From Gammaproteobacteria bacterium (GTDB lineage: Bacteria > Pseudomonadota > Gammaproteobacteria > Thiomicrospirales > Thiomicrospiraceae): a stretch of DNA of 51,316 nt. Below, piece after piece: positions 4,525 through 5,978 of the stretch. Position 1 is the stretch's first letter. Each line of letters begins with the position of its first letter. The position numbers and the translations under genes are program-made. The stretch covers positions 1-51,316 of the forward strand of contig JACXUY010000006.1 of NCBI GenBank assembly GCA_014763665.1. The letters run 5' to 3'. Under the pieces are notes generated by a model, which was given only the letters and a program-made list of their open reading frames with translations, did not search any database and was not told the DNA's origin.

Positions 4525-5103
4525 TTAACGATATTTACGCATTAAACCGACCAACACCCCAACCAAACGCCACTCGCCTTCTGGTCGAATAACCTCATAA
4601 GCTGAATTTTCTGGCTGAAGTGCCCACACGCCTTGCTCTTTAATGAGCGTTTTTAAGGTCACCTCACCGTCAATTTCAGCAATAACAATATCACCTACCT
4701 TATGCGGCATTGAGGTATCAATAACCGCAATATCACCCTCCACAATCGCCGCTTCGATCATCGAATCGCCTTTCACCTCGACCAATAAGGTTGAAGCCGC
4801 ATTGTGGATGAGATATCGATCCACGGCGATACCATCCAGCAAATCGTTATCGGCAATTCCTGGAATGCCAGCACGCACTACCGAACTGGCCATAGCACGT
4901 TCAAAAAACTTATCATCGGGGGCAACTCGACGATCAGGGGTAATCGACACATAACCCGCTTGCACTAAGCGCTTAATCAACGCATGCACTGCTGACTTCG
5001 ACGCCAACCCCAAGACTTCCGCCATGGTGGCATAAGAAGGCAAGGCGCGATGATCGCGGTAATAGTCTTGCAACTTACTCAAGTAATTCAGGTCTTTTTT
5101 CAT
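4525..5103 (-). CDS. lexA: LexA-type SOS repressor / S24 autopeptidase
   Basis: An N-terminal winged helix-turn-helix (about residues 1-65) binds DNA, and a C-terminal S24 domain self-cleaves when RecA filaments form. The scissile Ala78-Gly79 bond (VRAGIPG), nucleophile Ser114 (GDSM) and general-base Lys151 (TLK) are all present at the expected spacing. The product is 192 aa from the ATG at 5103; a GTG two codons upstream is an alternative. Three GAAC-N4-GTTC palindromes lie upstream, pointing to autoregulation through an operator unlike the CTGT-N8-ACAG box of most gammaproteobacterial LexA proteins. A specialised LexA2-like paralogue is therefore possible, and another lexA may exist elsewhere in the genome. 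Confidence 0.88.
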   Translation of the reverse strand: MKKDLNYLSKLQDYYRDHRALPSYATMAEVLGLASKSAVHALIKRLVQAGYVSITPDRRVAPDDKFFERAMASSVVRAGIPGIADNDLLDGIAVDRYLIHNAASTLLVEVKGDSMIEAAIVEGDIAVIDTSMPHKVGDIVIAEIDGEVTLKTLIKEQGVWALQPENSAYEVIRPEGEWRLVGVLVGLMRKYR

Positions 5104-5121
5104 GGTCACAACACTTCATCA

Positions 5122-5185
5122 GAACGTTTGTTCGAATTATGCACGAACGATTGTTCTGTTGTCAACAGAAACAGAACGAAAGTTC
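5122..5185. promoter_or_regulatory. Three LexA operator-like boxes (GAAC-N4-GTTC)
   Basis: The boxes are GAACGTTTGTTC (5122-5133), GAACGATTGTTC (5145-5156) and GAACGAAAGTTC (5174-5185). All share the 4+4 palindrome with a 4-base spacer beginning with G, spaced 23 and 29 bases apart. They lie in the lexA-yggS divergent gap, 19 bases or more from the lexA start codon, where a repressor would block the lexA promoter. The pattern resembles the CGAAC-N4-GTTCG box of Bacillus-type LexA. Confidence 0.75.
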
Positions 5186-5258
5186 GTTATTTTATTTGAC
5201 CCCAGCATGAGATCGTAATAACCTATTCTCAGTAATTTTTAGCATGTTAGGATAGGAC

Positions 5259-5978
5259 ATGAAAGATAGCCTTCTGGTTGATCGCTGGCACAGCATCCAA
5301 TCACGCATTCGACAAGCTAGTCTTGCAGCTCAACGCCATGCCAATGAAGTCAGCCTGTTAGCCGTGAGTAAATTTCATTCCAGTGACGCCATCGCTGCAC
5401 TCGCTGAAGCTGGCCAGCTAGCTTTTGGTGAAAACTATGTGCAAGAACTTTGTACAAAAGCAAAAACACTGGCACACCTTCCCATCGAATGGCATTTTAT
5501 TGGCCCGCTACAGTCGAATAAATGCAGGGATATCGCGCCAGTTGCCACGATGATTCACAGCGTTGATCGCTTGAAGTTGATTCCCTTGTTGGCACAGCAT
5601 CGCCCCGCTCACTTAGCACCGCTGCAACTACTGATTCAAGTGAATATAGATGATGAAGCCAGTAAATCGGGCGTTAAGCATTTTGATGAAGCGCTTGAAC
5701 TGGCAAAGCTCATCCAAACCTTTCCCAACTTAAAACTCGGTGGGTTGATGACCATCCCTAAACCACAATCCGATTTAAGTTTACAAAGACAGGCTTTTGC
5801 GCAATTAAGGGCTTGGCGTGATCGACTGGCTAACCTTTTAGGAGTGAATTTGCCTCATTTATCAATGGGAATGTCTGATGACCTTGAAGCAGCCATTGTT
5901 GAAGGTGCTACAATAGTTCGCATTGGTACGGCCATTTTTGGCCCTCGACCCTTACATTCGATGACAAAGGAAGAATAA
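5259..5978 (+). CDS. yggS: Pyridoxal-phosphate homeostasis protein (YggS/PROSC family)
   Basis: This is a PLP-binding TIM-barrel protein without known catalysis that buffers free PLP. The 239-aa product has the PLP Schiff-base lysine in LLAVSK (Lys38), the FGENYVQEL segment and the phosphate-binding C terminus SMGMSDDLEAAI...VRIGTAIFG. An AGGA ribosome site precedes the ATG. It is followed 4 bases later by proC and then yggT, the classic yggS-proC-yggT cluster. Confidence 0.95.
   Translation: MKDSLLVDRWHSIQSRIRQASLAAQRHANEVSLLAVSKFHSSDAIAALAEAGQLAFGENYVQELCTKAKTLAHLPIEWHFIGPLQSNKCRDIAPVATMIHSVDRLKLIPLLAQHRPAHLAPLQLLIQVNIDDEASKSGVKHFDEALELAKLIQTFPNLKLGGLMTIPKPQSDLSLQRQAFAQLRAWRDRLANLLGVNLPHLSMGMSDDLEAAIVEGATIVRIGTAIFGPRPLHSMTKEE

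Follow-up and report, generated by a model that had tools for sequence, protein, structure and literature searches.

A noncanonical LexA with three predicted operators in a genus of Thiomicrospiraceae, and its candidate SOS regulon

Results

The lexA gene and its leader

The window (the whole stretch of DNA analysed, 51,316 nucleotides of contig JACXUY010000006.1) carries a lexA gene and a divergent yggS gene, separated by a leader with three copies of a palindrome. The features of this interval are as follows.

4525-5103, minus strand: lexA, 192 amino acids from the ATG at 5103, with a winged helix and an S24 self-cleaving domain
5122-5133: predicted operator box 1, GAACGTTTGTTC, just 3′ of the -10 element and covering the presumed transcription start
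5136-5165, minus strand: predicted lexA promoter, TTGACA-N18-CATAAT, assigned purely by its match to the consensus (11 of 12 letters)
5145-5156: predicted operator box 2, GAACGATTGTTC, inside the -35/-10 spacer and identical in its letters to the box at umuDC
5174-5185: predicted operator box 3, GAACGAAAGTTC, 5′ of the -35 element, between lexA and yggS
5259-5978, plus strand: yggS, divergent from lexA, which could share box 3; its product is putatively the PLP-homeostasis protein YggS

A pattern scan of the window bore out the initial annotation, which had described three palindromes in the lexA leader: all three are exact GAAC-N4-GTTC sequences at the positions given, and each spacer begins with G. 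The window as a whole contains four such sites against 0.63 expected, a number reached in none of 100 shuffles; the fourth (1805-1816) lies within clpB. In a leader of approximately 155 bp, 0.002 boxes are expected by chance, and the probability of finding three is about 1e-9. Two other species of the genus have the three boxes with identical 23- and 29-bp spacing, and the fourth species has a single box at lexA. A sequence similar to the predicted promoter was recognized by eye in all three of these species. No CTGT-N8-ACAG sequence was found upstream of lexA, either in the three genus loci scanned or in the window leader as read.

The window protein lies at the edge of the family models. Its match to Pfam LexA_DNA_bind (PF01726) is 24.5 bits, just above the cut-off of 23.7, and Peptidase_S24 was also matched; with NCBIfam TIGR00498 it scores 99.4 bits, below the curated 110.95. 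Two betaproteobacterial relatives (106.3 and 100.5 bits) likewise fall under the TIGR00498 cut-off, which thus misses a noncanonical LexA subtype. Cleavage is predicted at A-G in VVRAG, with the serine in GDSM and the lysine in TLKTL, and the catalytic residues are invariant across the genus alignment. Judged by its domains, its Ala-Gly site and its putative Ser-Lys dyad, the product is a genuine LexA. Alignment with other LexA proteins places the recognition helix of the N-terminal winged helix at GLASKSAVHALIKRL. This differs from the canonical gammaproteobacterial SPNAAEEH, as had been anticipated for a protein facing such boxes. An alternative in-frame GTG start lies at 5109.

In the three genus genomes read, lexA is flanked by clpB on one side and yggS-proC on the other. 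This clpB-lexA-yggS-proC synteny argues against misbinning. The yggS gene of the sister genera adjoins a polyphosphate-kinase-like gene, not lexA, in nearly all of the genomes read. A check for a second lexA, which the initial annotation had proposed, returned a single LexA DNA-binding domain by profile search of the window's genome; the gene is present in one copy only.

Relatives of the window LexA

Relatives were taken as the best 80 lexA loci in contigs of named genomes, one genome per species. Three are from the window's own genus (97, 82 and 66% identity); the other 77 are almost all betaproteobacterial (Leeia, Andreprevotia, Novimethylophilus, Gallionella, Sideroxydans, Nitrotoga and others, from Gallionellaceae, Nitrosomonadales and their neighbours), with identities of 44-54%. 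A GAAC-N4-GTTC box lies within 300 bp upstream of lexA in 75 of these 77, as a single copy in 59 leaders and as two copies in 16.

In a maximum-likelihood tree the genus forms one group (98/100) within the LexA clade of Gallionellales and Nitrosomonadales, separate from the LexA proteins of Salmonella, Methylobacter, Streptomyces, Collinsella and Listeria. The base of the clade is a polytomy, so that the tree fixes neither the donor nor the direction of transfer. These results divide two phrases of the initial annotation. "Gammaproteobacterial lexA" holds for the host and fails for the gene, which groups with the noncanonical LexA of betaproteobacteria; "Firmicutes-style" holds for the motif and fails for the protein, which does not group with Firmicutes LexA. 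A mobile source was also considered and rejected: no relative of this LexA was found in viral contigs, the phage and plasmid matches all have less than 60% identity, and the best full-length plasmid match has 35%.

LexA across the order

The order was sampled with 63 genomes from seven genera, four from the window's genus and 59 from its sister genera. LexA_DNA_bind was matched in four of the 63, all four in the window's genus, and the positive controls were detected. The profile search found no LexA DNA-binding domain in the 59 genomes of the six sister genera, with a model that barely reaches the window LexA, so that an equally divergent LexA elsewhere could escape it. A protein search of the same genomes gave no further match spanning the DNA-binding domain.

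The sister genera have a LexA of approximately 153 amino acids without the DNA-binding domain (L260 703-1164, G054:C1:889205-889663, and orthologues). It scores 114.1 bits with the NCBIfam lexA model (cut-off 110.95), over profile positions 79-200 only, and would be called LexA by automatic annotation. Its cleavage site and Ser-Lys pair are intact by eye, it is present in nearly every sister genome searched, with a conservation of approximately 57-100%, and its gene adjoins YciI-like and asparaginase-like genes where read. Most sister genomes also encode a UmuD with an N-terminal extension (GGARKGAGRKKGSGKFGE..., e.g., L037 1492-2112), whose gene is divergent from a umuC-like gene in the two loci read. 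Neither an orthologue of the peptidase-only protein nor the extended UmuD was found in the window's genus.

Candidate regulon

Candidate operators were scored with a matrix trained on 91 betaproteobacterial lexA boxes only. The training boxes span 14.2-29.6 bits, and the window's own lexA boxes score 13-19 bits. The initial annotation had staked its reading on further boxes near DNA-repair genes, and these are present at nadK-recN, parE and umuDC, the identities of the candidate target genes having been checked with family models. An invariant AGAACATTCGTTCT (22.7 bits) precedes nadK-recN in all four genus genomes, and a box scoring 15.7-19.6 bits precedes parE in the same four. The box before umuDC (20.0 bits) was found in the window's species only. 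Two of these predicted operators lie within promoter spacers: the umuD box falls in the 17-bp spacer that separates TTGTCT from TATAAT, and by eye the parE box falls between TTGTAT or TTGTAA and TATTAT or TATGAT in the four species. In the window's genome (G000; L018 7076-7229) 154 bp lie between nadK and recN, two genes that directly abut each other in two further species of the genus.

A box at recA, one of the genes that the initial annotation had proposed to scan, was found in none of the four genus genomes: the best sites in the recA leaders score -17.7 to -5.1 bits, and none of them reaches the 95% point for shuffled leaders. In the sister genera, the exact box is absent from 17 of 17 parE leaders and 20 of 20 nadK leaders; four one-mismatch sites near nadK fall within the neighbouring upstream reading frame.

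Genome-wide, the motif is not enriched (20 GAAC-N4-GTTC sites versus 48 for the reversed control), which implies a very small regulon. Other exact sites in the genus are mostly intragenic. A one-mismatch scan with the extended box in the four genomes added no repair-gene site; 20 regions were read, and the best sites are nearly all intragenic. One exact site, GAACAAACGTTC, occurs near umuDC (L016 6810-6821; C191:6810) and is lexA box 1 reversed. Its position is the end of a small gene; it has no evident downstream target and is separated from umuDC by toxin-antitoxin-like genes.

Discussion

The reading that we consider probable is that a noncanonical LexA was acquired laterally, once, in the ancestor of this gammaproteobacterial genus, and that it would control a minimal SOS regulon from which recA is excluded. 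The protein is of the type otherwise found in Gallionellales, Nitrosomonadales and other betaproteobacteria. A LexA dimer is predicted to bind the GAAC-N4-GTTC boxes lying on core promoters, repressing its own gene through three boxes, nadK-recN, parE and, in the window's species, umuDC. Upon DNA damage, RecA assembled on single-stranded DNA would provoke self-cleavage of LexA at the Ala-Gly bond and release these promoters; recA itself would stand outside the regulon. In other LexA systems, a promoter-embedded dimer blocks RNA polymerase, and RecA filaments trigger self-cleavage and induction. If recN and parE are indeed induced together, the response would appear to be directed at cohesion and decatenation.

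Vertical inheritance, with a LexA in the ancestor of the order and loss in every other genus, appears unlikely. LexA loss is common and the peptidase-only protein of the sister genera could be a remnant of the ancestral LexA, but this account requires loss in six genera, the nearest relatives of the window LexA are encoded on betaproteobacterial chromosomes, and the sister peptidase is only approximately 34% identical to it across approximately 100 residues. That the protein came together with its motif from Firmicutes or Actinobacteria is scarcely credible, even if the GAAC-N4-GTTC core is common to both and the recognition helix (GLASKSAVH) resembles that of Listeria LexA (GLASSSTVH): the Listeria, Collinsella and Streptomyces proteins group with canonical LexA, away from the window's clade, and matches in those phyla reach about 31-35% identity, against 44-54% for the betaproteobacterial type.

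The occurrence of motif-like sites inside genes of the genus might indicate that the palindromes are inert or serve a different regulator. We regard this as very improbable, since the operator precedes lexA in 75 of 77 relatives outside the genus and its presence at recN and parE follows that of LexA. A LexA2-type repressor linked to the imuA-imuB-dnaE2 mutagenesis cassette is a comparably poor candidate. The S24 repressor encoded beside imuA on a Rhodanobacter plasmid is a distant match (34% identity), but it joins the tree on a very long branch, and the window gene adjoins yggS-proC and not such a cassette.

A fuller history accompanies lateral acquisition more tentatively, and we hold it to be somewhat less than an even prospect. 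The order, one of sulphur oxidisers, may have lost the DNA-binding function of LexA while keeping the peptidase-only protein; the genus may then have captured a complete betaproteobacterial LexA, shed the peptidase-only form and re-established an SOS switch over recN and parE without recA.

Sanchez-Alberola et al. (J Bacteriol 197:2622; cited in PMC8565304, PMC13148647 and PMC7017128) reportedly described in 2015 a group of Betaproteobacteria (Sideroxydans, Gallionella and relatives) with a changed operator motif under a noncanonical LexA. The window LexA resembles that type in its clade (44-54% identity to those sampled), in the operator core and flanks, in its putative autoregulatory boxes at lexA and in having candidate operators at several SOS genes (nadK-recN, parE, umuDC). 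It differs in residing in a gammaproteobacterial host whose order is otherwise without LexA, in having three lexA boxes as against one or two in the sampled relatives, and in that, in its genus, a box was found at parE and none at recA. A recA operator was not treated as defining the betaproteobacterial type, since there are documented SOS networks to which recA does not belong (PMC13148647).

The LexA of Bacillus and Staphylococcus recognizes the same GAAC-N4-GTTC core (PMC3323433, PMC11442139) from a different branch of the LexA tree; the motif is convergent. Control of parE by LexA is known from S. aureus (PMC11442139) and Streptomyces venezuelae (PMC9380542). In Francisella, FddR is a phage-type repressor with the motif GTG-N11-CAC (PMC13148647). 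The present case would be similar in that an S24 repressor has a small regulon in a lineage without canonical LexA, where recA is not induced; unlike FddR, the window protein has a LexA DNA-binding domain. The E. coli-type LexA shares with it the fold, the cleavage site and the Ser-Lys dyad, and differs in its CTGT-N8-ACAG operator, in the recognition helix SPNAAEEH and in having recA in its regulon. Targets of the E. coli-type protein include umuDC and recN.

The betaproteobacterial noncanonical LexA and its motif are known; what is new is the host group. Among the papers searched, none joins Thiomicrospira with LexA and the SOS response. In E. coli, both RecN and topoisomerase IV work at the contacts between sister chromatids, and changes in topoisomerase IV compensate for RecN loss in sister-chromatid cohesion (PMC5343486); co-control of recN and parE agrees with this work. 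LexA motifs are known to switch in the course of evolution, and according to models an SOS network can be reassembled once LexA has been lost (PMC8565304, PMC13148647). Here a LexA-bearing genus stands among LexA-less sister genera, and the same target genes occur with and without operators in neighbouring genera, which opens regulon gain to stepwise study. Through gene transfer, this genus of sulphur bacteria appears to have recovered a small switch for the damage response.
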